From Anaerohalosphaera lusitana (GTDB taxonomy: Bacteria > Planctomycetota > Phycisphaerae > Sedimentisphaerales > Anaerohalosphaeraceae): a stretch of DNA of 64,000 nt. The notes under the pieces were generated by a model that was not told where the DNA came from, did not search any database, and was given only the letters and a program-made list of their open reading frames with translations. The DNA is taken from contig NZ_CP019791.1 in assembly GCF_002007645.1 (NCBI RefSeq), forward strand, positions 2,480,001-2,544,000. The letters run 5' to 3'. Made by a program: the position numbers and the translations under genes. Within the stretch, counting starts at the first letter, position 1. Each line of letters opens with the position of its first letter. This document shows, piece by piece, positions 9,259 through 25,232 of the stretch.

Positions 9259-10401
9259 ATGGATTCAGTTTTTGATAAAGTTGTTGATCGAAGCTGCTCG
9301 TCAAGTCTCAAGTGGGATCGATACAAAGGGCGTGATATAATACCCATGTGGGTGGCGGACATGGATTTTGAGGCGCCGCCGGCTGTGATCCAGGCATTAC
9401 ATACCAGGGTGGATCATGGTGTTTTTGGCTACACCTTGCCGCCCGCAGAGCTCACCAATACGATCCTGGAATATCTGGCAGATGAATTCAGTTGGCAGAT
9501 CGAGCCCGGCTGGATCGTTTGGCTGCCGGGCCTGGTCACCGGCATAAATGTCGCCTCCAGATCAACCGGCGAGTCCGGCAACGAAATAATCACGTTCACA
9601 CCTGCCTATCCGCCTTTCCTGGACGCGCCGGGCTTAAGCGACCGCAAGAATGTGACTGTTCCGCTTGTGATTCAGGACGGCCGTTACTCTTTCGATGAAC
9701 AAAATTTAAAGCAAGCCATCACACCGCGAACCAGCCTCCTTAATCTCTGCAGCCCCCATAACCCTACAGGCCGCGTTTGGGACAAAAATGAGCTCGAAAA
9801 AATCGCAGAAATATGCCTCAGTAATGACGTCGTGATCTGCTCAGATGAGATCCATAACGGCCTTGTTCTGGACGATGTAAAACACATACCGACCGCAACT
9901 CTGTCTGAAGAAGTCGCGCAAAAAACAATAACCCTGATGGCACCAAGCAAGACATTCAACATTGCCGGCCTCGGATGCTCGTTCGCGATAATACCAAATG
10001 AATCGTTACGCCGGCGATTCCTGCACGTTATGGAGGGCATCGTACCCCACGTCAACGCCCTGGCATACACCTCCGCACTGGCAGCGTACAGAGACAGCGG
10101 ACAGTGGCGAAAAGATTTGCTCGAATACCTGCGATCCAACAGGGACCTCGTTCTGGATTTCGTAAACGAACGCATCCCGGAACTCAGCGCTGAGAATATC
10201 GAAGCGACCTACCTCGCCTGGATCGACGCAAGAAGCCTGGGCCCGGATGATCCCGCCCGTTTTTTTGCCGAACATGGCGTAGGACTCTTGGACGGAAAAG
10301 AATTCGGTGCCGAAGGTTTCGTAAGGCTGAATTTTGGATGTCCGCGCAGGACCCTCATGCAGGGCCTAACAAGAATGCAGACAGCGGTTTCGCGTGTATA
10401 A
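9259..10401 (+). CDS. patB: PatB/MalY-type pyridoxal-phosphate C-S lyase (cystathionine beta-lyase)
   Basis: This 380-residue fold-type I aminotransferase-like enzyme of the MalY/PatB group cleaves cystathionine or related cysteine S-conjugates to pyruvate, ammonia and a thiol. The N-terminal MWVADMDFE motif is diagnostic of the group. NPTGRVW and SDEIHNGLVL (PLP-ring contacts) are present, and the Schiff-base lysine is Lys231 in APSKTFN. Length is typical. It follows the small membrane peptide and ends at a bidirectional terminator shared with the convergent sugar transporter. The exact substrate cannot be read from sequence. Confidence 0.88.
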   Translation: MDSVFDKVVDRSCSSSLKWDRYKGRDIIPMWVADMDFEAPPAVIQALHTRVDHGVFGYTLPPAELTNTILEYLADEFSWQIEPGWIVWLPGLVTGINVASRSTGESGNEIITFTPAYPPFLDAPGLSDRKNVTVPLVIQDGRYSFDEQNLKQAITPRTSLLNLCSPHNPTGRVWDKNELEKIAEICLSNDVVICSDEIHNGLVLDDVKHIPTATLSEEVAQKTITLMAPSKTFNIAGLGCSFAIIPNESLRRRFLHVMEGIVPHVNALAYTSALAAYRDSGQWRKDLLEYLRSNRDLVLDFVNERIPELSAENIEATYLAWIDARSLGPDDPARFFAEHGVGLLDGKEFGAEGFVRLNFGCPRRTLMQGLTRMQTAVSRV

Positions 10402-10442
10402 TTACCGATACGACCTTGTAATAGATTATAGCAGGTCATAAA

Positions 10443-10474
10443 AAAGCCGCACGCTGCTAAAGTCGTGCGGCTTT
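10443..10474. terminator. Bidirectional intrinsic terminator
   Basis: A perfect 11-bp inverted repeat (AAAGCCGCACG at 10443-10453, CGTGCGGCTTT at 10464-10474) with a 10-nt loop lies between the convergent patB-like and sugar-porter genes. The A-rich and T-rich outer ends suit termination from both sides. Confidence 0.8.
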
Positions 10475-10500
10475 GTCATTGGTCTGTTCTTATTTCTCCG

Positions 10501-11958
10501 TCATGCCCTCAACTCATCCGGTTCGCTGGCGGCCGAGGAAGTTTGCTCCGCACTCACAATACCCAGCTTCTGCTCGATCTGCTCCAGCGGCACATCCTTC
10601 GTCTCGGGCATTATGAACAGTACCCACAGCAACTGCAGCACCATCATACCTCCATAGAATGAAAAAGTCGCAGTTCCGCCCAGCGTATCGGCGAACATCG
10701 GAAACGTCCACGAGATCACCGCCGCCATTATCCAGTGCGTCAACGCCCCAAGCGACTGTCCTTTCGCCCGCACCTTGTTCGGGAATATCTCACTGATAAA
10801 CACCCATATGACCGCACCCTGTCCGAAGGCGTGCGATGCGATAAACACCGCCAGTGAGACCAGGACGATCACCGAGCTCGTCGTCACACCTGTGGCCGTC
10901 TCAGCCGCTGCCGAGAAATTGCCGTTCATGTGGAAAGTCACAGCGACCGCGGCAAGGCTTATGATGTAGCCGATCGAGCCGACAAGCATCAGCTTCTTGC
11001 GTCCGAAACGGTCGATCACGAGCATCGCAAGCATCGTGAAGATCAGATTCGTCAACCCCAGCCCCACACTGCTCAACAGCGACGCGTTCCTGTCCGCACC
11101 TGCAAGCTTGAACACATTAGGCGCATAATACAGCACCGCGTTTATGCCCGAGAGCTGATTGAACATCGCGATCAGCACAGCCAGCATGACCGGTATCGCA
11201 TACTTCGGGTTCATGCCCTGTTCCCACTTGAAAGTCAAAAAGCCTTCCTTCTCCTGCATGTTTTCTCGTTCAAGCGATACCTGTATATCCCTCAGTTCGT
11301 CCTCTGTCGACTTACCCTCGTCCACGCCTATCGATTCGAGAACCCCGCGAGCCTTATCACTCTTTCCCTGTCCGACGAGCCATCGGGGACTCAGCGGGTT
11401 GCCGAAGAGCAGGAAGAAATATGCCGCAGCAGGTACCGCCTCAACTCCGAACATCCATCGCCATTCCACAGCATCCGCCACCAGCGCAGCGACGATATAG
11501 TTTGACAAGAACGCCAGCAGAATACCCAGAACGATGTTGAACTGCACCACAGCCACAAGTCTGCCCCGCAGCTTTGCAGGAGATATCTCCGCGATGTACA
11601 TGGGAGCTACCACCGATGATCCGCCAACGCCGAGGCCTCCGATGAACCGGAATATGATAAACGACCACCAGTTCCACGCGAAGGCACTGCCCAGTGCCGA
11701 TACGAAGTACAGAAGTGCCAGGATAAAAAGCGTGTTACGGCGACCGAACCTGTCTGCCGGGTTGCCCGCAAACATCGCTCCGAAAATCGTTCCGATCAAA
11801 GCACTGGCCACCGTAAAGCCTAGCCAGAAACCCTCGACCTGGAAGACTTTTTCCAGGTGATCCACCGTACCTGATATCACAGCCGTGTCAAACCCGAACA
11901 ACAGCCCGCCCAACGCCGCGACGATGGAACTCCTGAGTAAAATTCCGTTTACTTTCAT
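10501..11958 (-). CDS. MFS sugar:proton symporter (sugar porter family)
   Basis: The protein has about 485 residues and twelve hydrophobic segments. Sugar-porter signatures are present: GGLLFGFDTAVISG in helix 1, DRFGRRN between helices 2 and 3, the PAKLRGRL stretch after helix 4, the SPRWL motif before the central loop, and DRFGRKKL in the second half. It probably imports a hexose such as fructose. ATG 11958 is preferred because GGAGAG (11971-11966) lies seven bases upstream. A longer start at 11973 would place that site inside the gene. It is downstream of and co-directional with the fructokinase gene (83 bp from this start), consistent with an uptake-phosphorylation operon. Confidence 0.88.
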   Translation of the reverse strand: MKVNGILLRSSIVAALGGLLFGFDTAVISGTVDHLEKVFQVEGFWLGFTVASALIGTIFGAMFAGNPADRFGRRNTLFILALLYFVSALGSAFAWNWWSFIIFRFIGGLGVGGSSVVAPMYIAEISPAKLRGRLVAVVQFNIVLGILLAFLSNYIVAALVADAVEWRWMFGVEAVPAAAYFFLLFGNPLSPRWLVGQGKSDKARGVLESIGVDEGKSTEDELRDIQVSLERENMQEKEGFLTFKWEQGMNPKYAIPVMLAVLIAMFNQLSGINAVLYYAPNVFKLAGADRNASLLSSVGLGLTNLIFTMLAMLVIDRFGRKKLMLVGSIGYIISLAAVAVTFHMNGNFSAAAETATGVTTSSVIVLVSLAVFIASHAFGQGAVIWVFISEIFPNKVRAKGQSLGALTHWIMAAVISWTFPMFADTLGGTATFSFYGGMMVLQLLWVLFIMPETKDVPLEQIEQKLGIVSAEQTSSAASEPDELRA

Positions 11959-12041
11959 ATTCTTTCTCTCCATGAAAACGCCGAATACATGCTTACGCCT
12001 CGCGCCTTGCGAGTATTTATCTGTGCTATTGAAAGAAATGA

Positions 12042-13022
12042 CTAGCCGCGCTTCTTCGTAAGCAGCTCATCATCTCGCCCGCGTTTGCTCTTTAGTTCGA
12101 TCTTTGCTCTTTCAGAATGTGTCCGCTTGAATCCGCCAGTCAACTCGGCGGGAAGCTGGGGAGTTGCGCCGGCGCGGCCGCAAACAAAACCTGCTACCCT
12201 GTTGGCTAATATATTTGTTTCATCGAGACTCAACCCTTGCAATCTACTCACTATCGTAGAAGCCGTGAAAGCATCACCGGCCCCTATAGTATCCTTCACA
12301 TCCACAGGGAAACCAGGGCAATAACTCACCTCATCACTGCTCAGCATGATGCTCCCCTTTGAATCCCTTGTCAATGCAACAAAGTGCAGTTGATATTTTT
12401 TCAATATCTGGTTCAACCGAGATTCTTGATCACCGTGTATGCCCAGCATTTCTGAAATTACTTCCAACTCTCCATCATTGAGTTTCAGGATATTAGCTGC
12501 AGCCAGTGATTCTTCTATTATTTCGGCGCTGTAGAATGATTGTCTTAAGTTTATGTCGAAAACCTTCAGACAGTCTTTCGCAGTGTGTTGCAGAAATCGT
12601 CGTATGGTCGCCCTGGAAACAGGGCTTCTTTGTGCCAAAGAACCGAAACAGACAGCATTGCAGCGGCCCGCAAGCTCTTCAAAACCATCCTGCCACGATA
12701 TGAAATCCCATGCCGTGTTCTCTGTTATGATGTACTCGGCCGTACCATTTACATCCAGCTCGACATCGACAGTGCCTGTAGGATACTCATTTGTCGATAA
12801 ATACTCCAGACCTACGCCCAGTTGCGAAAGTTTATCTCTGATTTCGGAACCGAGTTTGTCGTCTCCTGCAGCACTCAATATATATGATACCGCTCCCATG
12901 GCGTGGGCGTGAAAGGCAACATTTGCCGGTGCTCCACCCAGTCTTTTGCCGCCGGGGAGCATATCCCAAAGTATTTCGCCTGCTCCTACGATCACGTGTG
13001 AGGTCTCTGAGCTCTTGTACAT
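12042..13022 (-). CDS. PfkB-family fructokinase
   Basis: This 326-residue ribokinase/PfkB-type kinase probably phosphorylates fructose to fructose 6-phosphate. Signature 1 (LGGAPANVAFHAHAMG, about residues 28-43) and the catalytic signature DTIGAGDAF, with its general-base Asp, are present. The fructokinase-like N-terminus (GEILWDMLPGGKRLGGAPAN) supports fructose over ribose. It is the first gene of a minus-strand pair with the MFS porter, and it lies opposite the GH32 cluster whose product would be fructose. The Lys/Arg-rich tail after about residue 300 extends beyond the usual fold. Confidence 0.88.
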   Translation of the reverse strand: MYKSSETSHVIVGAGEILWDMLPGGKRLGGAPANVAFHAHAMGAVSYILSAAGDDKLGSEIRDKLSQLGVGLEYLSTNEYPTGTVDVELDVNGTAEYIITENTAWDFISWQDGFEELAGRCNAVCFGSLAQRSPVSRATIRRFLQHTAKDCLKVFDINLRQSFYSAEIIEESLAAANILKLNDGELEVISEMLGIHGDQESRLNQILKKYQLHFVALTRDSKGSIMLSSDEVSYCPGFPVDVKDTIGAGDAFTASTIVSRLQGLSLDETNILANRVAGFVCGRAGATPQLPAELTGGFKRTHSERAKIELKSKRGRDDELLTKKRG

Positions 13023-13417
13023 AATCCCGAACCTTCTTCCGAAAAGCCTGAATCCTAAAACATATCTCGTTGCAACCCTGGACTTGCTTCCTGGGCTTAG
13101 CCAATATCGTCAAAGTTGTAAACCTGAGCTTAGCAACTCGCCTTTTGCCTGTCAAGGGAATATTGTGCTGGCGTGTAAATTAGTGTTATGGGACCACAAA
13201 GTGGCTCATGGCGGTTCAAAGTCGCGATTGTTTGGACCGAATTGCAAGTTGTATGTAGGTATAGGAGTCTCGGAATTCAATGGCTAAAGTGTCTAAAACC
13301 AGATGTGTGTTACAGATTTGTCATTCGAAATCTAAAAAAGGCTTGACAGATGTAAGCCTAAAGGCTAAATTGGCGGCATGAATTGCTAGACCGTTATTCC
13401 GGCTACAAGGAGCTTAT
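13023..13417. other. 395-bp divergent control region of the fructan locus
   Basis: This region separates the minus-strand fructokinase operon from the plus-strand pseudopilin/LamG genes. On the plus strand it has a good promoter at 13343-13371. On the minus strand there is a TTGACA at 13155-13150, but with a poor -10. A short inverted repeat AGCC-TAAA-GGCT lies in the spacer of the plus promoter. A TGTGTTACA string at about 13306-13314 recurs in inverse orientation in the leader of the GntR/LacI gene. No small gene was recognised. Confidence 0.5.
13343..13371 (+). promoter_or_regulatory. Candidate promoter of the pseudopilin-LamG operon with possible operator
   Basis: Perfect TTGACA (13343-13348), 17-bp spacer, TAAATT (13366-13371). 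The inverted repeat AGCC-N4-GGCT (13355-13366) fills the spacer and reaches the first base of the -10 box, a position suitable for repressor binding. Confidence 0.5.
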
Positions 13418-14311
13418 ATGCAAGTCGTAAGAAAAGCGTTCACTCTCATAGAGTTGCTGGTCGTCATTGCAATTATAGCTTTACTGCTCGCCATAATGAT
13501 GCCCGCCTTGCAAACCGTCAAAGAAAGTGCAAGAGTTGTAGTCTGCAAAACCAATCTTCATCAGTACGGGCTGGCGATGGAATTGTACACTCTCGATAAT
13601 GATGGTTACTTTCCTTTTGTTTATAACTGGCTCTACTCACAGCCCAACCTCACCAAGATCAGTCAGGGGCAATACCTTCAGTCCGATGGCTCTTACGAGC
13701 CTGGACCGCCTTGCCCGCCCCAATGTGTATGGCACAACGAAAGGGCGCATCCAGACGGTGGTTTATGGCCTTATCTGAAAAATGAGGACATTCACAGGTG
13801 TGCCAGCTTTGAAGGCTATGCAAAACAGGACGGGGCCGGGCATCATCCGGGCCACGAACCCGCAATTCCAATGAACCCGCAGTATTCATATAGCATGAAT
13901 TATTGGCTTGGTGTCGAATCCTATAAATGGAATCCCAATGACACAAGCATGCCTCCTCCCGCCGGTGCACCGGGAAGCCCCGAAGCAAACGGCAGAAGTC
14001 TCAGGGCCAGCAATGTGAAACGACCTGGTTCTGTTTTGGCTTTTGCTGAAGAAAACGCGTGGACAATAGACGGTATCAGTAACTTTGGCCTGGATGACAA
14101 TTCTTTATACATCCTCAAATCTATGCCCGTTAATTTCCTTGCAACGTTCCACAAATCAGGCGGAGATCTGGAAACCGGAAAAAGCAATGGCGTCTTCTTG
14201 GACGGCCATGCGGAAACGATGGATTTCGGAGATATGATCGCTGATGATTCACTGGATCGACGCGATATCCTTGAAGAAGTATTTGAACTTGTCTGGCCGT
14301 TGGGTAAATGA
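13418..14311 (+). CDS. Type II pseudopilin-like protein of the fructan locus
   Basis: The 297-residue protein starts with a short basic leader (MQVVRKA) and the prepilin signature [19 protein letters not shown], with Glu at mature position 5. The globular part is Tyr/Trp/Gly-rich and ends with the planctomycete pseudopilin motif [12 protein letters not shown] strong AAGGAG site precedes ATG 13418. It heads a plus-strand series of LamG proteins and GH32 enzymes, so it may be part of an extracellular filament or secretion machine linked to fructan use. Confidence 0.82.
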
Positions 14312-14363
14312 TCAATTGAAAACTGTGTTTCAATGTAAATCTCACTTTAACTCGGAGGAAAAG

Positions 14364-15293
14364 ATGAAAACGAAAAGAATGATCTGTTTGATGGCCTTGT
14401 TGATGGTAACTTGTAGTGCAGTAGCTTCTGCTGAAATCGTCCATCACTGGAAAATGGACGCATGGTCCGGCGACACACTCTACGTAGGCGGCAATCCCGT
14501 TACCCACGGGATCGTTGACAGTGCCGACGCTCCAGGACAGGGAACGATCGCAGGTAACTCGGGCGATCCCAATCCCGCACACGACCCCCTCTATCTGTGG
14601 GGTCCGATGGAAGGCGCAGGCGCTGACGCGATAAGCTCTGACGTTGCACCTTCTGCAATGCTCAACGGGATCACATCCACAGGTTCCTACAATTTCAATC
14701 ACGTCATCGATCAGGGCGGTAACATGTTCTATGCCGCTGACCAGTTCGGCAACGAATATGATTCCGGCAGCTTCACAGCCGAGCTCTTCTTCAAATCCCT
14801 CGACAACACGGGCGGAACCGAAACACTTCTCTGGTCAAAAGAGGGCCACGCAGCAAGCCATATCCAGCTTAGTACAGGCGCCTCCGGGACTGGCGGACTC
14901 GAATTTTGGGGCTGGGACGGAACCGGTTTCGCCAGCCTTACTGTCACCACCGACGACCGCCAGGCGGGCTTTCAGGACGGTCTCTGGCACTACGTAGCCG
15001 CTCGCTATGACACCGACACCAACGAAATGAGCCTGCAGGTATACAGCGAAGACGGCAGCGCTTACAGCAAAACTCAGATACTCGACAATGATATGATCCT
15101 CAGCGGTGGTAACAACAACATCATCGTAGGTCGCCAGGAAGGCGAAGTAAACCGCTTTGCCGGCCTTATCGACGAAGTACGTCTTTCGACGCACGCCATG
15201 GATGATGCCGAACTTATGGCAATACCCGAGCCGGCAACAGTTGCACTGTTGGGTCTTGGTGGTCTGGCTCTGCTGAAAAGACGCAGAGCGTAG
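14364..15293 (+). CDS. LamG-domain PEP-CTERM protein
   Basis: This is a secreted protein of 309 residues. It has a signal peptide (MKTKRMICLMALLMVTCSAVASA), a LamG/concanavalin A-like jelly roll (FGNEYDSGSFTAELFFKS through FAGLIDEVRLS) and a PEP-CTERM sorting tail (IPEPATVALLGLGGLALLKRRRA), which would be handled by an exosortase encoded elsewhere. ATG 14364 is chosen because GGAGGAA lies just upstream. A longer frame reaches back to 14244 but overlaps the pseudopilin. It is probably a surface carbohydrate-binding protein of the fructan locus. Confidence 0.85.
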   Translation: MKTKRMICLMALLMVTCSAVASAEIVHHWKMDAWSGDTLYVGGNPVTHGIVDSADAPGQGTIAGNSGDPNPAHDPLYLWGPMEGAGADAISSDVAPSAMLNGITSTGSYNFNHVIDQGGNMFYAADQFGNEYDSGSFTAELFFKSLDNTGGTETLLWSKEGHAASHIQLSTGASGTGGLEFWGWDGTGFASLTVTTDDRQAGFQDGLWHYVAARYDTDTNEMSLQVYSEDGSAYSKTQILDNDMILSGGNNNIIVGRQEGEVNRFAGLIDEVRLSTHAMDDAELMAIPEPATVALLGLGGLALLKRRRA

Positions 15294-15335
15294 CAAGGGA
15301 ATATCATTGAAAACGAATTTTGGAGATGTTGAATA

Positions 15336-17534
15336 ATGAAGTATTGTAAAATGCTAACTCTTATCGCTGTCGCACTGTTGATGTCTGTCAATGTGCATGC
15401 AGCTACAACGATAGCTCATTGGAGCATGGATTACACTGGATCAGCCAATCCGGTGGTAGCTGATTCAGCCACTGATCCCGGGCAGGGCACTCTGACCGGC
15501 GGTCTCCCGGACGCAGCAGAAGTCGACAATCTCTATTTCTTCCCCGAAGGCGGCTACGTTGCCGGGTACGATACACCACCGAGCAGCATGTTCAACGCGG
15601 GCTTCTCTGGCGGGTCCGAATCCTTCTATCCCGGCTACATGCAGGGACAGACAGGTGCTGCATTGTTCTTCCCCCAGGATGGCTACGGCAACGAATTCGA
15701 CTTCGCCGACTCCTTCACCATAGAAGGCTTCTTCAAGACCGACGGCGATCAGTCACAGAACGGCTTCCAGCAGATCCTCACTCAGGACGAGGTCGGTTTC
15801 AGCTACAATCTCACCCTCAATGAAGGTGGAGAAGGCGCACTGATGTTCGCTGTTAATACGATCGCAGGCGGCACTGGTCAGATAACCACTGTTGCTGCAG
15901 GCGGCCCCGGTATAGCTAATTTCGCCGATGGCACCTGGCACTACTTCGCTGCACGTTACGACGACCGCAATGACCGTTTCTCGATCACTGTTATGAAGGA
16001 AAACGGCTCAGTGTTCGCAGCAAGCACCAAGCTCCCCACAGGCTCAGAATTGCTTCACGAAGGCGCAGGCAACATGCTGATTGGACGCGAAAGCTTCGCA
16101 AGCGGATCTCGAAACTTCAACGGCTTCATCGACGAGCTTCGCTTCAGCCAAGGTCTGGTTGAGGACACTCAGCTTATGGGTGCTGTCCCGGTAAGCGTAA
16201 GCGTAATTGCACCGGAAGATGGCCAGCAGAATGTTTTCACTGCCGACGCTCAGCTCGAGTGGTGGGGCGATGAAGAGGTTATCGCTTCCTACGACGTCTA
16301 TTTCGGCGAGTCCGAAACGCAGCTGACCCTGCTCGGCAATACAGCCGAAACAGCATTTACCGCTCTGCCGACACTCGACCCTGCAACTACCTATTACTGG
16401 AAAGTCGACGGCCGTGACGCCTCAAACAATGTCGTTGTTAACGGCTCCGTCTGGTCGTTCACAACTCGCCAGGCTCCCCAGAAAGTTCTGGAATGGAAGA
16501 TGGATGCCAGTTCCGGCTCTACGGTTCAGGACTACTCAGGCAACGGCAATGACGGTATCTTCGACGGCTGGGCCAACCCCGTCTGGACGACCGGATTTGA
16601 AGGCAATTGCCTCAGCTTCAACGGTGGCGGAACAGTTGTAAAACAGAATGCTTCCAACCTGCCTCTGGCCGCTGAAAATTCGTGGACAATGAACCTTTTC
16701 GTCCAGGTAGACAACCCGATTGACCAGGAAACCATTATCGCTGGCATGGGTGACCAGATGTTTACCGGAAGTGTTAACACCGAGGACCCGTCCGCTGATC
16801 CGAATATGTTCGGCAGCATCCGCTACATCGCCTCGTTCCCCTGGAGCGGCATCACAATGTATGGCAACCGTGCCGATGTCGAATCGCACGTTCCCGTAAC
16901 CGAGGACGCATGGCAGATGATCACCGCGACATACGACGGCTGGAGCGACCAGTGCACTCTCTACCAGGACGGCTCGCAGATAGGCTCCGCTCAGATCGGC
17001 CTGAGTGACGCGTCTGCTGTAGTCAAAGCCGCAACCTACCAGAATATCTGGTCCAACACCCTCAACTTTGTAGGTAAGCTCGACGAATTCACCATCTACG
17101 ACCAGGCCCTATCACCCGCCGAAGTTGGAGCAATGTCTCCCTGGGCATACGGACCGGCCCCGGCTAATGGACAGCAGGGCATTGCCATTAATGCATCTCT
17201 TACCTGGAACGCCGGCAAAGACGCACTCAGCCATGATGTCTACTTCGGCACCGATCCCAACATGGCCTTCCAGGGCAATCAGACATCGACAACCTTTGAT
17301 CCTGGCACGCTGGAATGGGGCACTACCTATTACTGGAGAGTCGACGAGATCGACAGTCTCGGCAACACACTCCAGGGCAAGACCTGGACGTTTACGACGA
17401 TCGTACCTCAGTGCGATCCGCCCCTGCCAGGTGACCTTGACGGCAATTGCTATGTTGACCTGAGAGATTTTGCAGCTATGGCGGAAAATTGGCTCAATTG
17501 TAATCTGATCCCGCAAGAAGCATGCGAATTCTAG
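15336..17534 (+). CDS. Secreted two-LamG protein with fibronectin-like and dockerin-like modules
   Basis: The 732-residue protein has a signal peptide (ending VHAA), an N-terminal LamG domain (FADSFTIEGFFKTDGDQSQ...FNGFIDELRFS) and a fibronectin/Ig-like module with YDVYFGESET and TTYYWKVDG. A second LamG domain covers about 375-600, and another YFGTDPN...TTYYWRVDE module follows. The end is a single dockerin-like loop (DLDGNCYVDLRDFAAMAENWL) followed by CNLIPQEACEF. The first LamG domain is closely related to those at 18772 and 20005. It is probably a non-catalytic glycan-binding surface protein. Confidence 0.82.
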   Translation: MKYCKMLTLIAVALLMSVNVHAATTIAHWSMDYTGSANPVVADSATDPGQGTLTGGLPDAAEVDNLYFFPEGGYVAGYDTPPSSMFNAGFSGGSESFYPGYMQGQTGAALFFPQDGYGNEFDFADSFTIEGFFKTDGDQSQNGFQQILTQDEVGFSYNLTLNEGGEGALMFAVNTIAGGTGQITTVAAGGPGIANFADGTWHYFAARYDDRNDRFSITVMKENGSVFAASTKLPTGSELLHEGAGNMLIGRESFASGSRNFNGFIDELRFSQGLVEDTQLMGAVPVSVSVIAPEDGQQNVFTADAQLEWWGDEEVIASYDVYFGESETQLTLLGNTAETAFTALPTLDPATTYYWKVDGRDASNNVVVNGSVWSFTTRQAPQKVLEWKMDASSGSTVQDYSGNGNDGIFDGWANPVWTTGFEGNCLSFNGGGTVVKQNASNLPLAAENSWTMNLFVQVDNPIDQETIIAGMGDQMFTGSVNTEDPSADPNMFGSIRYIASFPWSGITMYGNRADVESHVPVTEDAWQMITATYDGWSDQCTLYQDGSQIGSAQIGLSDASAVVKAATYQNIWSNTLNFVGKLDEFTIYDQALSPAEVGAMSPWAYGPAPANGQQGIAINASLTWNAGKDALSHDVYFGTDPNMAFQGNQTSTTFDPGTLEWGTTYYWRVDEIDSLGNTLQGKTWTFTTIVPQCDPPLPGDLDGNCYVDLRDFAAMAENWLNCNLIPQEACEF

Positions 17535-17556
17535 TCGGTAAATAGCCGATTATTGT

Positions 17557-17585
17557 GGTAGCAGGAGAACATCTCTCCTGCTGCC
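17557..17585 (+). terminator. Hairpin between the LamG gene and the regulator gene
   Basis: GCAGGAGA (17561-17568) and TCTCCTGC (17574-17581) form a perfect 8-bp stem around a 5-nt loop. The stem extends to 13 bp (17557-17585) with one wobble pair. Only a short T run follows, so it may be a weak terminator or an mRNA-stabilising structure separating the LamG gene from the regulator. Confidence 0.4.
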
Positions 17586-17600
17586 GCTTTCAATATAAGA

Positions 17601-17620
17601 TTTGTAACACAGGTGACAAA
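17601..17620 (+). promoter_or_regulatory. Possible autoregulatory operator over the regulator's ribosome-binding site
   Basis: The inverted repeat TTTGT (17601-17605) / ACAAA (17616-17620) with a 10-bp gap covers the AGGTGA ribosome-binding site and touches the ATG at 17621. Its ATTTGT/ACAAAT half-sites resemble the outer halves of AraR operators, a family with the same GntR-LacI domain combination. No binding data exist. Confidence 0.3.
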
Positions 17621-18751
17621 ATGAACACGCCGGATATTTCAGCCGCAAACGAGAAAACTAAGCATCGACAGATATACGAATACCTGCACAAGGCCATCGT
17701 TCAGGGCCGTTACAAAAACGGCGAACGACTTCCATCCGAAGTCGACCTCGCCAAGAAGTTCAAGACCTCACGCCCAACTGTCGCAAGGTCGCTCAGCGAT
17801 CTTCACCAGTCCGGCCTGATCGTTCGCAAGGTGGGTTCGGGCACATACGTAAAGTTCAAGGGCGAACTCTGCGGCGCCAAGACTTTCGGCCTTATGGTCC
17901 CCGGTCTCGGTGAAACTGAGATATTCGAACCTATCACCGCCTACATGTCTTACATAGCCGAAAAGAACAACCTAAGTCTGCTCTGGGGCCGTTCAGTGTC
18001 GGAAGATGCCGAAGCAAGAAAGAAGCACGCCCGCAGACTAGCTGAAAGATTCATACAGCAGGAGGTCGACGGCGTTTTCTTCGCACCTTTGGAACTGACA
18101 TCCGAAAAAGACGCTGTAAACACCCGCATTCTGCAGTGGTTCGAAGAGGCCCATATCCCCGTCGTACTTCTCGACCGAGACGTGGTCCCCTTCCCCCAGC
18201 GAAGCAGATATGATCTGGTCGGCATAGACAACTTCCATATTGGGTCCGTACTCACCGAGCACATGATCGAGTGCGGCTACGAAAGAGTAGAGTTTCTCAG
18301 CAGACCCTTCTCCGCACCTACCGTCGACATGCGAATAATCGCCTTCCAGCAGATGCTCCGTCACGCGGGCATGGAACCAAACGCAGATTCTGTACGATGG
18401 GCTCAGCCCGAGGACATTGAGTTTATCCGTTCGATCACCTCGGACGCCTGCAAAAAGGCCTTCATCTGCGCCAACGACGCCACAGCCGCCATCCTGATGC
18501 ATACCCTCGATCAGCTCCAGATAAACATTCCCGATGAGATCGGTGTCGCAGGCGTTGACGACATCAGATACGCATCGCATCTCAGGGTACCGCTGACGAC
18601 CTACAGACAGCCCTTCGAGGAGCTTGCAAACGTCGCGGTCGAAACCATGCTCGCACGAATAGCCTCACCAGCTATGCCGGTTCGTTCTACGTACCTTCGC
18701 GGCGAACTCGTCGTAAGGCAGTCCACGATGCCCACAAGCACAAGCCGTTAG
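17621..18751 (+). CDS. GntR-type winged-helix / LacI-type sensor transcriptional regulator
   Basis: The 376-residue protein combines a GntR winged helix (about residues 15-80, with NGERLPSEVDLAKKF and TSRPTVARSLSDL) with a periplasmic-binding-protein-like sugar sensor of the LacI/GalR type (about 90-370, with GVFFAPLEL, VLLDRDV, AFICANDATAAIL and GVAGVDDIRYAS). This is the architecture of AraR. ATG 17621 is chosen over the longer frame from 17555 because of the AGGTGA site. It lies inside the fructan locus and most likely responds to a fructose-derived or oligosaccharide ligand. Confidence 0.87.
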   Translation: MNTPDISAANEKTKHRQIYEYLHKAIVQGRYKNGERLPSEVDLAKKFKTSRPTVARSLSDLHQSGLIVRKVGSGTYVKFKGELCGAKTFGLMVPGLGETEIFEPITAYMSYIAEKNNLSLLWGRSVSEDAEARKKHARRLAERFIQQEVDGVFFAPLELTSEKDAVNTRILQWFEEAHIPVVLLDRDVVPFPQRSRYDLVGIDNFHIGSVLTEHMIECGYERVEFLSRPFSAPTVDMRIIAFQQMLRHAGMEPNADSVRWAQPEDIEFIRSITSDACKKAFICANDATAAILMHTLDQLQINIPDEIGVAGVDDIRYASHLRVPLTTYRQPFEELANVAVETMLARIASPAMPVRSTYLRGELVVRQSTMPTSTSR

Positions 18752-18771
18752 TACGTTGGAGAAATGTCCCA

Positions 18772-19989
18772 ATGATTCCCCTCATCAGAGCAGCATTAAT
18801 ATTTGTCTGCACCACTTCATTTGCATGCCTGGCCCAGACCACTGCACGCTGGTCAATGCAATGGAGCCATATCTCTAATCCGGTTGTTCGCGACAGCGCA
18901 TTCGGCCTGGGCGAAGGCCCGCTCGGCGGTGCCGGTGGACCGATCGTTGAATTCGACCACCTCTGGTATTTCGGCAACGCCGGATTCACCGCCAGTCACG
19001 AACAGCCGCCCCAAAGCCTCTTCTCATCAGGCTTCTTCCCGCACGGCACCTCCTACAACGCAGGTGCACAGTTCGGCGACGGCATACTCTTCTTCCCCCA
19101 GGACCAGTACGGCAATGAATTCGACTACCACGACTCATTCACCGTCGAGGGCTTCTTCAAAACCCACGGCAACCAGTCCGCCGCAGGCATACAGCAGATC
19201 CTCCTGCAGGGCGAAAACGATTACAGCTACGGCATCACCATCAACGAAGGAGGCCCCGGCTGGCTCTGCTTCGGAGTGAACGTAACCGGCGACGGAATAG
19301 TCACCGTCAAAGCCAATGCCAAAAACTATGCAGACGGCTCCTGGCACTATTTCGCTGCCCGCTACGACGACCCCGCCGACACCATAGAACTCATGACCGC
19401 CTCAACCGACGGCCGCACCGAAAACAAATCGGTCCAGCTCTCCAGCGGAACCGAGCTCATCACAGGCGGTGCCGGCAACATGCTGATCGGCCGCGAAACT
19501 TTCCAGGGTGCCCGCCAGTTCGCCGGATTAATAGACGAAATAAGACTCACTAACGGGTATTGGGCAAACGCGCACCTTATGGGCAGGATCACTGCCAAAT
19601 ACAGCCCTCAGCCGGCCCCGCGTCAGACAGGCGTCACCCTCATGCCCCAGCTTCAATGGGACGATGGTGAGGATGTCTTCGCCTATAACGTATACTTCGG
19701 CCAGACCGACCCCCCGGCATACAGAAGCCATCAAAGCGGCACGACCTACTACATTCCCGCAGAGCTCGAGCCCGGCACGACGTATCTCTGGCGTGTCGAC
19801 AGGCTCCTGCAGAACGGCACCACAATACGCGGCGAATTGTGGTCCTTCACCACGCACTACACTGAATGCGACGGCCCGATGCCGCACGACTACAACGGCG
19901 ACTGCACCATTAACATGCAGGACCTTTCCCACTTCGCCGCTGCATGGCTCGACTGCGGACTAGTCCCCGAAACATCTTGTTGGTATTAG
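18772..19989 (+). CDS. Secreted LamG protein with dockerin-like C-terminus
   Basis: This 405-residue protein has a signal peptide (to about residue 22), one LamG domain (FDYHDSFTVEGFFKTHGNQSAAG...FAGLIDEIRLT) and a YNVYFGQTDP...TTYLWRVDR fibronectin-like module. It ends with a dockerin-like loop (DYNGDCTINMQDLSHFAAAWL) and CGLVPETSCWY. GGAGAAATG lies upstream of ATG 18772. It begins 20 bp after the regulator and 15 bp before the GH32 gene (from its ATG), so the three form one operon. The LamG domain is strikingly similar to those at 15336 and in the first GH32 protein. Confidence 0.82.
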   Translation: MIPLIRAALIFVCTTSFACLAQTTARWSMQWSHISNPVVRDSAFGLGEGPLGGAGGPIVEFDHLWYFGNAGFTASHEQPPQSLFSSGFFPHGTSYNAGAQFGDGILFFPQDQYGNEFDYHDSFTVEGFFKTHGNQSAAGIQQILLQGENDYSYGITINEGGPGWLCFGVNVTGDGIVTVKANAKNYADGSWHYFAARYDDPADTIELMTASTDGRTENKSVQLSSGTELITGGAGNMLIGRETFQGARQFAGLIDEIRLTNGYWANAHLMGRITAKYSPQPAPRQTGVTLMPQLQWDDGEDVFAYNVYFGQTDPPAYRSHQSGTTYYIPAELEPGTTYLWRVDRLLQNGTTIRGELWSFTTHYTECDGPMPHDYNGDCTINMQDLSHFAAAWLDCGLVPETSCWY

Positions 19990-20004
19990 AAATTGGGTAA
20001 ACTC

Positions 20005-23000
20005 ATGACTGCAAATAGATCCATACTTTTCGTACTCCTCGCTCTCTTAGCTATTTCTCCCGGCGCTTTCGCCGCCACCGTCGGCTTCTGGTCTATGGAC
20101 CCCATCGGCGGCAACCCCATGGTCAACGACGCCAGCGGCCAGGGCAATCACCTCTGGTACATGGGCATCACCGGCTATACCCCTTCCAGCGACACTCCGC
20201 CTGCAAACCTCCTCAGCTCCGGTTTCACCGGCGGCACCCACGCCTACGACGCGGGCCAGCAGTCAGGCTACGGCATACTGATGTTCCCGCCTTCACAATA
20301 CGGCAACGACCTAGACTTCGCAGATTCCTTCACTGTCGAAGGCTTCTTCAGAACCCACGGCGAACAGTCGCTCGCAGGCCCCATGCAGATATTTCTACAG
20401 GCCGATTCGGATTTCAGCTACGGCCTCGTCCTTAACGAAAACGGCAACGGAGCACTGAACCTCAGCTTCAACGTTATGCCCGGCGGCATCCAGTCGCTAA
20501 CGATCAGCAAACGAAACTATGCCGACGGCAACTGGCACTATTTCGTGGTTCGCTACAATGACGCCGCCGATCGTGCAACTCTTGGCATTCTCAATGAGGA
20601 CGGCAGCTACGACACGGCAATCAAGCAATTCTACTCCAACAGTGAGATATACCGCGGCTCTGATGAGTCGATGTTCATTGGACGCGAAACCTCCGGCAGC
20701 TCCCGTACCTTCCGCGGCCTCATAGACGAAATACGATTCAGCACCGGCGTTCTGACCGACGGCTATCTGCTCGCATCTCTGCCAAAGCCGAACCAGGCAA
20801 CCGGCCCCACACCCGTGGACTATAAGACTGACCTGTGGATCAGCACCGCCCTGAACTGGATACCCGCTGCGGGCGCCTCCAGCCATCGGGTCTATCTGGG
20901 TGACAGCTTCCCGCTGACCTTAGTGTCCGAACAGACCGAGCTCTCTTACAAGACAGGCCAGCTCGAAGCAGGAACAACGTACCACTGGCGCGTTGATGAA
21001 GTGTTCCCGGACAAAGTGGTAACCGGCACCACCTGGCGATTCACCACGACCCTCGCCCAGTGCAAGTTCCCGTCTATACATGACCTCAACGACGACTGCA
21101 TAGTGGACGCGCTCGACCTGCAAACCTTTGCCCAATCCTGGCTCAGCGGCTCGGACGTCACTCCGTACCAGCAGGCAGCCGATTACCCCAACGCGCAGGT
21201 AGTTCTCGATTTCTCCGAGGTCGACGGCTACCAGACCCGCGACAAAACCTCAAACGCAATGCTTAACATAAACAGCCCGTTCTACGAACCCGAATGGGAA
21301 AAGGGCGTATTCGGCAATGCACTCCGCTTCGATGGAGGAACAAACTGGGTCACCAAACACATCCCCGAAGAGGACCAGCCCTCCGATCAGTTCACCATCG
21401 AGACCTGGATCGCACTTGAATCTTACCCTGTCGGCGACGGCGCCATAGTCAGCAAATATACACATCCAACCGCTGGCTACATTCTCGGCCTCACCAGTTA
21501 CGGCCGCTGGAATTTTTCACTCTCCGTCGACGGTAACTGGTACAGTTGCTGGGCCACCATGGAACTCCCAACATACAAGTGGAATCACATCGCCGCAACC
21601 TTCCACAAGGATCAGGGCATCAAACTCTACCTGGACGGCAATCTTGTCGGTTCCGCAGCAACCCCCGCGGGCCGTCCGATCACTCCCGATGCTGGCAACG
21701 ACCTCATGATCGGTCGCGACATACATACCGACTGGTCCGGCCCCTATGCCCACGGTGCGATCAACGGAATACTTGACGAATTGCGAATCTACAACCGCAC
21801 CCTCACCCCCCAGCAGATCCGCGCCGAATATGCCAAAGGCTTACCCTTGGACAGCGAACCCGACCTCATCCCTTCATCTGATCGCTTCACAGGCCCTGCA
21901 AATGGACGCCCCGGCTACCACGCCGGCACCTCGGCAAACTGGACCAACGAACCAACGGGCCTCGTTTACGACCCCGCCCGCAGCGAATGGCACGTGTTCC
22001 ATCAGAAGAACCCCTCAGGCAGCTTCTGGGATCACATCCATTGGGGCCACCTGAAAAGCTCAAATCTTGCGGACTGGGACCACATGCCCAACGCCATCGC
22101 ACCCGAGCCCGGCATAGATTCTGGCGGCTGCTGGTCAGGCAACGCGGTAATAAACAATGGCATCCCGACACTCGTCTATACCGCTATCGAAGGCAAGGCC
22201 CACGTCGCGCTCGCAACCAGTGTTGACGGCTGGGAAACATGGCAGAAACATGGACACGTCCTCAGCGATGTCCCCCCGGGCTTCATGGACTACCGTGACC
22301 CGTACGTCTGGCACGAAAACGGCCAGTGGTATATGATAATAGGCTCCGGCATTCATGGAGATGTCGGCGGGGCGGCACTGCTCTACAGATCGCCGAATCT
22401 CTACGACTGGCAGTACCTTCATCCTCTGCTCACCGGCGACGTTGCAACCTCCGGCTTCTATTGGGAAATGCCCATCTTCCTGCCGATCGGCAACGGCAAG
22501 CACATTCTGATAGTCACCGATATGCACCACGACGGACCAGCCCACCTGCTCTATTGGATAGGCACCTGGCAGAACGAGCATTTCACCCCAGACCACCCCG
22601 AGCCGCGACAGATGGACGCCTTCAACTGGATGCTCGCACCGGCCGCATACGTCGCGTCGGACGGCTTACCCCGCATCATGGGTATCGTACCCGAACAGCG
22701 GGCACCCGCGCTCATCGAAAACGCGGGCTGGCGCCATACCTTCTCGCTGCCTCGCAAAATATACGCTGCCCCTGACGGCACTCTTCGTCAGCAGCCCGCA
22801 CCTGAACTGGCTGCCCTGCGAGAGTTCCATCTCCACCTCGAAGATCAGACGCTTGCAACCGGCATTGGCGACAACACCCTCCGTCCCGCCTATGGCAAAA
22901 TGGTCGAGATCGACACCGAGATCGATCCCCAAAACGCTGCCATCGTCGGCGTCAAGGTCCTCCAGAGCCCCGACAGCAGCGAGCAAACGCTCATCTACTA

Positions 23001-23295
23001 TGATCGTCTCGCGGGCACAATAAACCTGGACAAACGGCAATCCTCACTCGACGTCACCGGCTCCGAAACGGTACACCTCAGCGCACCGTTCGACCCAGCC
23101 GGCCAACCCGTCAGGTTCCACATCTACGTCGACCACAGCGTTATAGATGTCTTCGTCAACGAACGTGCCGTCTTCAGCAGCAGGGTGTATCCCACTCGCT
23201 CCGACAGCACCGGAGTCGAACTCTATACCGTCAGCGGCACGGCCCACATAAACTATCTTGACATATACAAACTGCGTTCTGTAATGGATCATTGA
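20005..23295 (+). CDS. Secreted multidomain GH32 protein (LamG, dockerin-like, LamG, GH32) with Glu at the nucleophile position
   Basis: The protein has about 1096 residues. In order it has a signal peptide (to about 23), LamG 1 (about 25-250), a fibronectin-like module, an internal dockerin-like loop (DLNDDCIVDALDLQTFAQSWL, about 360), LamG 2 (about 395-610) and a GH32 fructanase region (about 635-1096, five-bladed propeller plus beta sandwich). In GH32 enzymes the nucleophile is Asp in WMNDPNG. Here the motif reads WTNEPTG, so Glu649 stands in its place. The stabilising RDP (Asp765 in YRDPYV) and acid/base Glu (Glu821 in YWEMP) are kept. ATG 20005 is preferred over TTG 19993. The stop overlaps the next frame. 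Activity is uncertain: it could be an altered hydrolase or a fructan-binding protein. Confidence 0.85.
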   Translation: MTANRSILFVLLALLAISPGAFAATVGFWSMDPIGGNPMVNDASGQGNHLWYMGITGYTPSSDTPPANLLSSGFTGGTHAYDAGQQSGYGILMFPPSQYGNDLDFADSFTVEGFFRTHGEQSLAGPMQIFLQADSDFSYGLVLNENGNGALNLSFNVMPGGIQSLTISKRNYADGNWHYFVVRYNDAADRATLGILNEDGSYDTAIKQFYSNSEIYRGSDESMFIGRETSGSSRTFRGLIDEIRFSTGVLTDGYLLASLPKPNQATGPTPVDYKTDLWISTALNWIPAAGASSHRVYLGDSFPLTLVSEQTELSYKTGQLEAGTTYHWRVDEVFPDKVVTGTTWRFTTTLAQCKFPSIHDLNDDCIVDALDLQTFAQSWLSGSDVTPYQQAADYPNAQVVLDFSEVDGYQTRDKTSNAMLNINSPFYEPEWEKGVFGNALRFDGGTNWVTKHIPEEDQPSDQFTIETWIALESYPVGDGAIVSKYTHPTAGYILGLTSYGRWNFSLSVDGNWYSCWATMELPTYKWNHIAATFHKDQGIKLYLDGNLVGSAATPAGRPITPDAGNDLMIGRDIHTDWSGPYAHGAINGILDELRIYNRTLTPQQIRAEYAKGLPLDSEPDLIPSSDRFTGPANGRPGYHAGTSANWTNEPTGLVYDPARSEWHVFHQKNPSGSFWDHIHWGHLKSSNLADWDHMPNAIAPEPGIDSGGCWSGNAVINNGIPTLVYTAIEGKAHVALATSVDGWETWQKHGHVLSDVPPGFMDYRDPYVWHENGQWYMIIGSGIHGDVGGAALLYRSPNLYDWQYLHPLLTGDVATSGFYWEMPIFLPIGNGKHILIVTDMHHDGPAHLLYWIGTWQNEHFTPDHPEPRQMDAFNWMLAPAAYVASDGLPRIMGIVPEQRAPALIENAGWRHTFSLPRKIYAAPDGTLRQQPAPELAALREFHLHLEDQTLATGIGDNTLRPAYGKMVEIDTEIDPQNAAIVGVKVLQSPDSSEQTLIYYDRLAGTINLDKRQSSLDVTGSETVHLSAPFDPAGQPVRFHIYVDHSVIDVFVNERAVFSSRVYPTRSDSTGVELYTVSGTAHINYLDIYKLRSVMDH

Positions 23296-23297
23296 TC

Positions 23298-25232
23298 ATG
23301 AAAAATTTGCTCATCACCACAATTATACTCCTGTCCTCAGTAACCGCATTCGCAGCTAAGGACGACATACTGATAGCGGACTTCGAGCAATCCAACTATG
23401 GCTCCTGGTTCATCAGCGGTAAGGCCTTCGGCGCCTCCCCAGCGCACGGAGCTCTCCCTGGACAAATGACCGTAAAGGGCTATCTGGGCGATTGCCTTGT
23501 AAATTCATTCACCGAAGGCGACGCCTCCACCGGCAGGCTCATCTCCCCGCCGTTCACGATCAAACGCGATTATATCAACTTCCTAATCGGCGGCGGCTAC
23601 CACCCCGACCAAACCTGCATTCAGCTTACTATCGACGACAAGCCCGTAAAAACCGCCACCGGAATGAACATGGAGCTGCTCACCTGGCACACCTGGGACG
23701 TATCTAAACATATTGACAAAACCGCTCGCATCGAGATCATTGACAAACATACCGGCGGCTGGGGCCATATAAACATCGACCATATATACCAGAGCGATAA
23801 ACCGAAACTGACCGGAGAAAACATGTACGTCGCAAAAGCGATGGCAAACGTCAAACGCTTCATCCCCCAGGTCAAGAATGATCCGCACCGCCCCGTCTAC
23901 CACTTTGCTTCCCCCGCCATGTGGATGAACGACATCAACGGCCCCATACACCATGACGGCTGGTATCACATATTCTATCAGCACAATCCATACGGCGACC
24001 AGTGGGGCCACATGCACTGGGGCCACGCCCGCAGCCGTGACCTCGTAAACTGGCAGCATCTGCCGATCGGACTTGCACCCTCACTCTCAAAAGGCGAAGA
24101 GCATTGCTTTTCAGGTTGCACCTGGCTCGATGAGAAGGGCACTCCGATCATTTTCTACACCTCCATCGGCCACGAACTTCCCGAACAATGGGCCGCCATC
24201 GGTGACGAAAACCTGCTCAATTGGCGAAAGCCAAAACAAAACCCATTCCTCGAAATGTCCGATCACGGCGACACTTTCATAAAGGATTGGCGCGACCCGT
24301 TCATATTCGAACACGGCGACCGCACATTCATGGTCCTCGGCGGCAAACTCGAACCCGCAGACGGCGGCGAGGCAGCAGCGACCATCTATGAAGCCGAAAA
24401 CGGTTCACTTCTGGACTGGACCTACAAGGGAATTATCTTCCGGCACCCCGACAAAAACCTCCGCAGCCTCGAATGCCCCAACTTTTTCCCGCTCCAGGAC
24501 AAACACGTTATGCTCGATTCACCATACGGACCGGTCGAGTACTTTGTTGGTGACTTCAACGCGCAAACATATAAATTCGATGCAACCTCAAAGGGCCTTA
24601 TAGACCACAGCGGCGACTACTACGCAACCAACATTATGTACGGCCCTAAAGAACGCTGCATCCTTCTCGGCTGGATTCGCGGCTTCAAGCCCGACCAGGG
24701 CTGGAACGGCGTCATGGCCATTCCGCGAATAATGACTATCGACAAGGCCGGAAACATAATCCAGCAACCCGCCGCCGAGATGAAACAGCTCAGGACCGAA
24801 AAACAGAATCGGAACTTAGTTCAGGCCTCAGACTCCAGCAAAACTGTAATGAAAAAGGCCGGCAAAACATTCGAGATTACAACCACCCTCGACCCCGGCT
24901 CAGCCGAAAAATGTATTCTCCAGCTTTGCTCAAACGCCGACGGCTCGGATGCAATGGACATCGTCTACACCCCCGGCAAGCTCACCGTCGCAGGGACCGC
25001 TGTACCATTAGATCTGCAAAAGGGTGAAAAGATTGACTTGCACATCTTCGTCGACCGAACGGTTCTGGAGGTCTTTATAAACAACGGTAAGCACGTGGTC
25101 ACAGAAGTTATCTACACCGATCCCAATTCAAATGCTGTTATCTTCAGGTCAGAAAACGGCCGAGCTGCTCTTCGTGACTTCACCCTCTACCAGCTAAAAC
25201 CTGCCGATTTCAGCCTCTCACATTACAATTGA
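23298..25232 (+). CDS. Secreted GH32 fructanase (levanase/inulinase type)
   Basis: The 644-residue exported enzyme has a signal peptide ending at TAFAA and an N-terminal beta-sandwich typical of bacterial levanases (ADFEQSNYGSWFISGKAFG). The GH32 propeller follows: nucleophile Asp212 in WMNDING, Asp333 in WRDPF and acid/base Glu392 in LECPNFFPL. A C-terminal beta-sandwich contains LHIFVDRTVLEVFINNGK. It should hydrolyse beta-2,1 or beta-2,6 fructan and release fructose. The Pro of the sucrose box is Ile here, a variation that leaves the nucleophile intact. It directly follows the first GH32 gene, so both come from one transcript. Confidence 0.92.
   Translation: MKNLLITTIILLSSVTAFAAKDDILIADFEQSNYGSWFISGKAFGASPAHGALPGQMTVKGYLGDCLVNSFTEGDASTGRLISPPFTIKRDYINFLIGGGYHPDQTCIQLTIDDKPVKTATGMNMELLTWHTWDVSKHIDKTARIEIIDKHTGGWGHINIDHIYQSDKPKLTGENMYVAKAMANVKRFIPQVKNDPHRPVYHFASPAMWMNDINGPIHHDGWYHIFYQHNPYGDQWGHMHWGHARSRDLVNWQHLPIGLAPSLSKGEEHCFSGCTWLDEKGTPIIFYTSIGHELPEQWAAIGDENLLNWRKPKQNPFLEMSDHGDTFIKDWRDPFIFEHGDRTFMVLGGKLEPADGGEAAATIYEAENGSLLDWTYKGIIFRHPDKNLRSLECPNFFPLQDKHVMLDSPYGPVEYFVGDFNAQTYKFDATSKGLIDHSGDYYATNIMYGPKERCILLGWIRGFKPDQGWNGVMAIPRIMTIDKAGNIIQQPAAEMKQLRTEKQNRNLVQASDSSKTVMKKAGKTFEITTTLDPGSAEKCILQLCSNADGSDAMDIVYTPGKLTVAGTAVPLDLQKGEKIDLHIFVDRTVLEVFINNGKHVVTEVIYTDPNSNAVIFRSENGRAALRDFTLYQLKPADFSLSHYN

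Follow-up and report, generated by a model that had tools for sequence, protein, structure and literature searches.

A LamG-linked GH32 protein with glutamate at the nucleophile position, probably an endo-fructanase, in Anaerohalosphaera lusitana and a multi-phylum bacterial clade

The window, a 64,000-nucleotide stretch of the Anaerohalosphaera lusitana genome, encodes a secreted protein of 1096 residues, P0001 (20005..23295, + strand), with a LamG-LamG-GH32 layout. Its ATG start codon lies at 20005, and an in-frame TTG lies upstream at 19993. Specifically, a first LamG-like stretch (residues 148-246; 20446..20742, + strand; Laminin_G_2, E=1.5e-5) is followed by a Pfam LamG_3 domain (residues 443-605; 21331..21819, + strand) immediately N-terminal to the GH32 portion, in agreement with the LamG partners named in a preliminary description of this DNA. 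The GH32 portion consists of an N-terminal five-bladed propeller (GH32N, residues 639-931; 21919..22797, + strand; PF00251, E=9e-56, 190 bits) and a C-terminal β-sandwich (GH32C, residues 951-1088; 22855..23268, + strand; PF08244, E=3e-28, 99 bits), and both Pfam profiles score above cut-off.

The adjacent gene encodes P0002 (23292..25232, + strand), a canonical Asp-type GH32 protein with the motifs WMNDING, RDP and ECP, whose probable ATG at 23298 lies 3 bp past the P0001 stop. These are the only two GH32 genes in the genome. The neighbour had been described as a paralogue that keeps the normal Asp; the Asp is kept, in WMNDING rather than NDPNG, but P0002 is a distant homologue (28% identity, in another part of the GH32 tree) and not a recent paralogue. 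Upstream of P0001, on the same strand, are a LamG protein of the same cassette (18772..19989), a regulator with a GntR-type DNA-binding domain and a LacI-type sugar-binding domain, likely of the fructan locus (17555..18751), and a further cassette LamG protein (15336..17534). The opposite strand carries a fructokinase-like PfkB sugar kinase (12042..13022; top NCBIfam match fructokinase, under cut-off) and a sugar-porter MFS transporter (10501..11973).

The cassette (13418-19989 of the window; 10390-16007 of locus L069) contains a pilin-like protein, a PEP-CTERM LamG protein and two more LamG proteins, and is conserved with G303 and G325, two genomes of another family in the same order. The G303/G325 cassette lacks both P0002 and the regulator encoded at 17555, and a transposase-like gene adjoins it in L069 (5614-6936). 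There is no need to assume that the cassette moved recently between this genome and G303/G325; identity is 72% for the whole of P0001, 60-75% for other cassette genes and 62-66% for GatA/GatB.

Translation of 20005-23295 and alignments to solved GH32 enzymes confirm that Glu649 (codon 21949-21951), in motif A WTNEPTG (W646-G652; 21940..21960, + strand), occupies the nucleophile position. In the pairwise alignments Glu649 pairs with the Asp of W-x-NDPNG, while Asp765 of the RDP motif (R764-D765-P766; 22294..22302, + strand; codon 22297-22299), the transition-state stabiliser, pairs with that of RDP, and the acid/base Glu821 of the WEMP motif (W820-E821-M822-P823; 22462..22473, + strand; codon 22465-22467) pairs with the Glu of ECP. 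Asp765 and Glu821 are thus both retained, as first reported. Given these alignments, no other alignment supplies an Asp. The −1 subsite residues W646, N648, Q667, W680, S711, R764, D765 and E821 are conserved. The AF2 model of P0001 (pLDDT 93.6) has the GH32 fold of propeller and β-sandwich, and its best 50 PDB fold matches are all GH32 enzymes, with 7VCO at the top (TM 0.87).

P0001 shares with canonical GH32 exo-fructosidases (7VCO, 8I12, T. maritima BfrA and P0002) the fold, the RDP motif, the acid/base Glu and the W/N/Q/WG/S/R pocket, whereas those enzymes have an Asp nucleophile, ECP and the GW Trp, and rarely carry LamG before GH32. The departure noticed earlier, Glu for Asp, is accompanied by three others: Thr651 stands where canonical enzymes have Asn, Met822 where they have Cys, and Ile894 (22684..22686, + strand) where the canonical GW motif has Trp.

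The orthologues in G303 and G325 have an identical WTNEPTG motif and are 80-82% identical to P0001 in the GH32 domain. Synonymous sites are saturated, and pN/pS in GH32 is 0.13-0.16, so that no other region of P0001 is under stronger constraint. Because the motif is kept in two genomes of another family, Glu649 reflects neither chance nor sequencing error. The search in other planctomycetes proposed in the preliminary description thus recovered the same motif, and extended to the whole phylum alignment it gives Glu in 5 of 102 GH32 domains, two of them from the distant lineage G004 and all five with EMP for ECP. Identity between P0001 and the G004 Glu-type rows is about 37-38% (alignment A1), and it reaches at most 44% with those of other phyla (alignment A3), so that substrate and endo/exo mode could differ among them.

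Using a profile built from the five planctomycete Glu-type sequences, we searched 85,000 genomes and obtained 79 loci, 76 of which hold a Glu-type GH32, a share biased by the presence of NEP in one of the two search patterns. A Bacillota subgroup (NEP[GH][GA]P, WELP) does not fit the NEP-containing pattern and was reached via the other. A scan of genome contigs with a single protein as query gave no matches. The Glu-type loci come from marine, soil and gut sources and cover about ten bacterial phyla, namely Planctomycetota together with Bacteroidota, Pseudomonadota, Acidobacteriota, Calditrichota, Caldisericota, Balneolota, Rhodothermota, Actinomycetota and Bacillota; the haloarchaeal GH32 relatives checked have Asp at the nucleophile position. 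In a maximum-likelihood tree of 44 non-redundant Glu-type and 59 Asp-type rows, with the motif columns removed, the Glu-type rows form one clade (SH-aLRT 92), and the Asp/Glu state requires a single change, compared with about 33 in shuffles. The clade divides into two subclades, NEP[HT]GL/WEMP, which includes P0001 and the EnIA-like spacings described below, and WQNEPGGP...WELP.

The Glu is linked to coordinated changes in the pocket. The residue after the acid/base is Met (34/44) or Leu (10/44) in Glu rows and Cys in 53 of 59 Asp rows. At position +2 of motif A, His is found in 40/44 Glu rows and Asn in 54/59 Asp rows, and the GW Trp, present in 54/59 Asp rows, is replaced by Ile in 42/44 Glu rows. 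All 42 Glu-type rows that extend far enough have LamG_3 directly before GH32, versus 4/59 Asp-type rows. In the endo-levanase BT1760, whose nucleophile is Asp, the nucleophile and the EC Cys jointly form part of the pocket floor (PMC6560043). The altered mechanism suggested at first is therefore a fair description in a weak sense, that of an altered active site, because further pocket sites changed along with the Glu. A remodelled pocket does not guarantee activity, since the canonical exo-inulinase KcINU1 is inactive once its EC Cys is replaced (C239A; PMC7545266). KcINU1 W334 sits in the 'WQY' region (PMC7545266); it may correspond to the later of the two Trp in GWMSNWQY, distinct from the GW Trp counted here.

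Glu at this position is known from two endo-inulinases, and the published GH32 motif reads WMN(D/E)PN (PMC13416181). In EnIA of Arthrobacter sp. S37, Glu323, Asp460 and Glu519 are catalytic (PMC5984348; also PMC7545266). E323A and E519A lower kcat and leave Km unchanged, while D460A is dead, which supports Glu323 as the nucleophile (PMC5984348). The published EnIA positions N322, E323, Q339, R459, D460 and E519 (PMC5984348) define spacings of 16 (E to Q), 137 (E to D) and 196 (E to E) residues, which are matched exactly in four actinobacterial members of the Glu clade (L139, L138, L140 and L134). On the basis of motif and spacing, EnIA thus probably belongs to the clade, and P0001 is in turn most likely an endo-fructanase of EnIA type. 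EnIA and P0001 share the Glu nucleophile position, an RDP-type stabiliser and the Glu acid/base; the EnIA acid/base motif is printed ECMP in a review and may mean EMP (PMC5984348), and P0001 has WEMP. P0001 differs in its shorter spacings (E to D 116, E to E 172 residues), in having more LamG and in its planctomycete context.

The second enzyme, the Aspergillus ficuum endo-inulinase INU2 (3RWK, 3SC7), has catalytic Glu43 (PMC5245892, PMC6042768, PMC13416181), and its sequence in PDB 3RWK reads WMNEPNG. INU2 shares with P0001 the Glu nucleophile, a non-Cys residue after the acid/base and loss of the GW Trp. Specifically, its Glu, its Val234 (EVP for ECP) and its Ala at the GW Trp site correspond to E649, M822 and I894 of P0001; WMNEPNG differs in retaining the +2 Asn. 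In a quick-search tree that included residues 28-360 only of INU2, the enzyme groups with 31 Asp-type rows (support 100, starred), apart from the bacterial Glu clade. INU2 thus supports the chemistry proposed for P0001 and not its specificity. With INU2 inside the Asp clade, at least two changes to Glu are needed, and Glu at the GH32 nucleophile position therefore appears to have arisen independently at least twice, in fungal INU2 and in the multi-phylum bacterial LamG-GH32 clade. Both apparent origins combine Glu with Cys replaced by Met or an aliphatic residue and with loss of the GW Trp, and we see about an even chance that this combination acts as a recurrent molecular switch that turns exo- into endo-fructanases. 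We found no statement of this three-site parallel in searchable papers; the Glu nucleophile itself is already known from endo-inulinases, and its repeated origin with the same pocket changes may be new. The parallel makes the long-standing question of why endo-inulinases use Glu open to a mutational test.

From the residues, fold, domain order and gene context of P0001 and from its place in the Glu clade, we consider it quite probable that P0001 is a secreted, active, retaining GH32 endo-fructanase of EnIA type with Glu649 as the nucleophile. In this mechanism, Glu649 would attack C2, the anomeric carbon, of the fructosyl unit bound at −1, Glu821 would protonate the leaving group and afterwards activate water, and Asp765 would hold O3/O4, with net retention. 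The longer Glu would be fitted by a joint change of the pocket, namely Met822 for Cys, Ile894 for the GW Trp and Thr651 for Asn, and the remodelled pocket would be in keeping with a wider site that takes mid-chain fructose units. The LamG before GH32 probably holds the polymer.

P0002 is likely the exo-acting partner of P0001. The P0001/P0002 pairing, the nearby fructokinase-like gene and the sugar porter suggest a fructan-use locus with division of labour, in which the Glu enzyme would make oligosaccharides and the Asp enzyme would finish them, and the products would pass to the nearby transporter and the fructokinase-like kinase. Both GH32 types are present in 36 of the 76 Glu loci, within the fetched stretch. 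None among 50 genomes checked has a Glu-type GH32 as its sole GH32; each has at least two GH32 matches. In G004 the Glu-type gene and an Asp-type gene share a 4-bp overlap, in the order opposite to that of the window, and the Asp-type partners of the window (P0002) and of G004 share one subclade. Glu-type and Asp-type domains are fused in a single ORF in 11 cases, in either order. The fusion ORFs encode Bacillota proteins of about 2000 residues (L127, L137, L149, L150, L152, L158, L163, L164, L165, L171 and L182). The clade signature W-x-N-E-P-[HT]-G / E-[ML]-P / GI would predict a likely endo-fructanase beside an exo-enzyme. Annotation pipelines label such proteins as plain 'GH32', and NEP for NDP could be misjudged as a defect.

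The same enzyme type and mechanism could serve an endo-levanase or an enzyme with another β-2,6-fructan specificity, a possible though doubtful reading that is compatible with the preferred one. Two members of the clade (L109 and L072) carry DUF4960, which binds levan, better than inulin (PMC10076258). Both characterised Glu enzymes, on the other side, are inulinases, and the endo-levanase BT1760 has Asp; inulin is more likely than levan as the substrate of P0001.

It is unlikely that P0001 is active mainly as a transfructosylase or cyclising enzyme, like cycloinulooligosaccharide fructanotransferase (CFTase), rather than as an endo-hydrolase. Retaining GH32 enzymes commonly transfer too. In the related WQNEPGGP...WELP subgroup, a Paenibacillus protein of 1374 residues (L172, 4141-8262) has about 420 residues before LamG-GH32, a layout that resembles the one reported for the CFTase of Paenibacillus macerans (AAG47946.1; GH32 and CBM38, with CBM38 at residues 32-389; PMC10076258). 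P0001, however, belongs to the other subclade, that of EnIA-like spacings.

The preliminary description had also raised slow hydrolysis or a role in fructan binding. That P0001 is dead or very slow and binds fructan for the neighbouring Asp-type enzyme would accord with the constant LamG linkage of the Glu type, with its frequent pairing or fusion with Asp-type GH32 and with the loss of the canonical Cys and Trp. Nevertheless, conservation of the other catalytic residues and of the −1 subsite extends over about ten phyla, and each of the 93 Glu-type domains scored (93/93) has kept its Glu together with the RDP Asp and the acid/base Glu, unlike the GH32-like ORF at L079:665-2611 (G036:C562), where WLSNPCG, RGP and EAL replace the catalytic motifs and which looks like a degenerate copy. 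Because Glu at this site is published as catalytic, in EnIA and INU2, both of them active enzymes (PMC5984348, PMC6042768), a protein that is impaired or that only binds fructan is not the preferred reading and is, in our estimate, very improbable. That another carboxylate is the nucleophile and Glu649 incidental is hardly credible: no support for it was found, no other Asp of the kind foreseen at first appears in the active site, E649, D765 and E821 mark the only acidic propeller columns that stay invariant throughout the 44 non-redundant Glu-type rows, the one further invariant acid, D1043 (G303-based numbering), lies in the C-terminal sandwich, and EnIA E323A lowers kcat (PMC5984348).

Two further GH32 variants were observed. 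Seven planctomycete loci (L087, L108, L044, L091, L107, L051 and L061) hold a divergent GH32-like group that keeps the Asp in an FDPNGA/GDANGC-type motif and has Ser, Ala, Met or Asp in the acid/base column (Ser/Ala in 13 rows), possibly with a different or lost activity. Five loci (L189, L191, L190, L192 and L193), haloarchaeal except for one from Arthrobacter, encode GH32 proteins with RDH for RDP, and GH68 genes are located close to three of the haloarchaeal ones.
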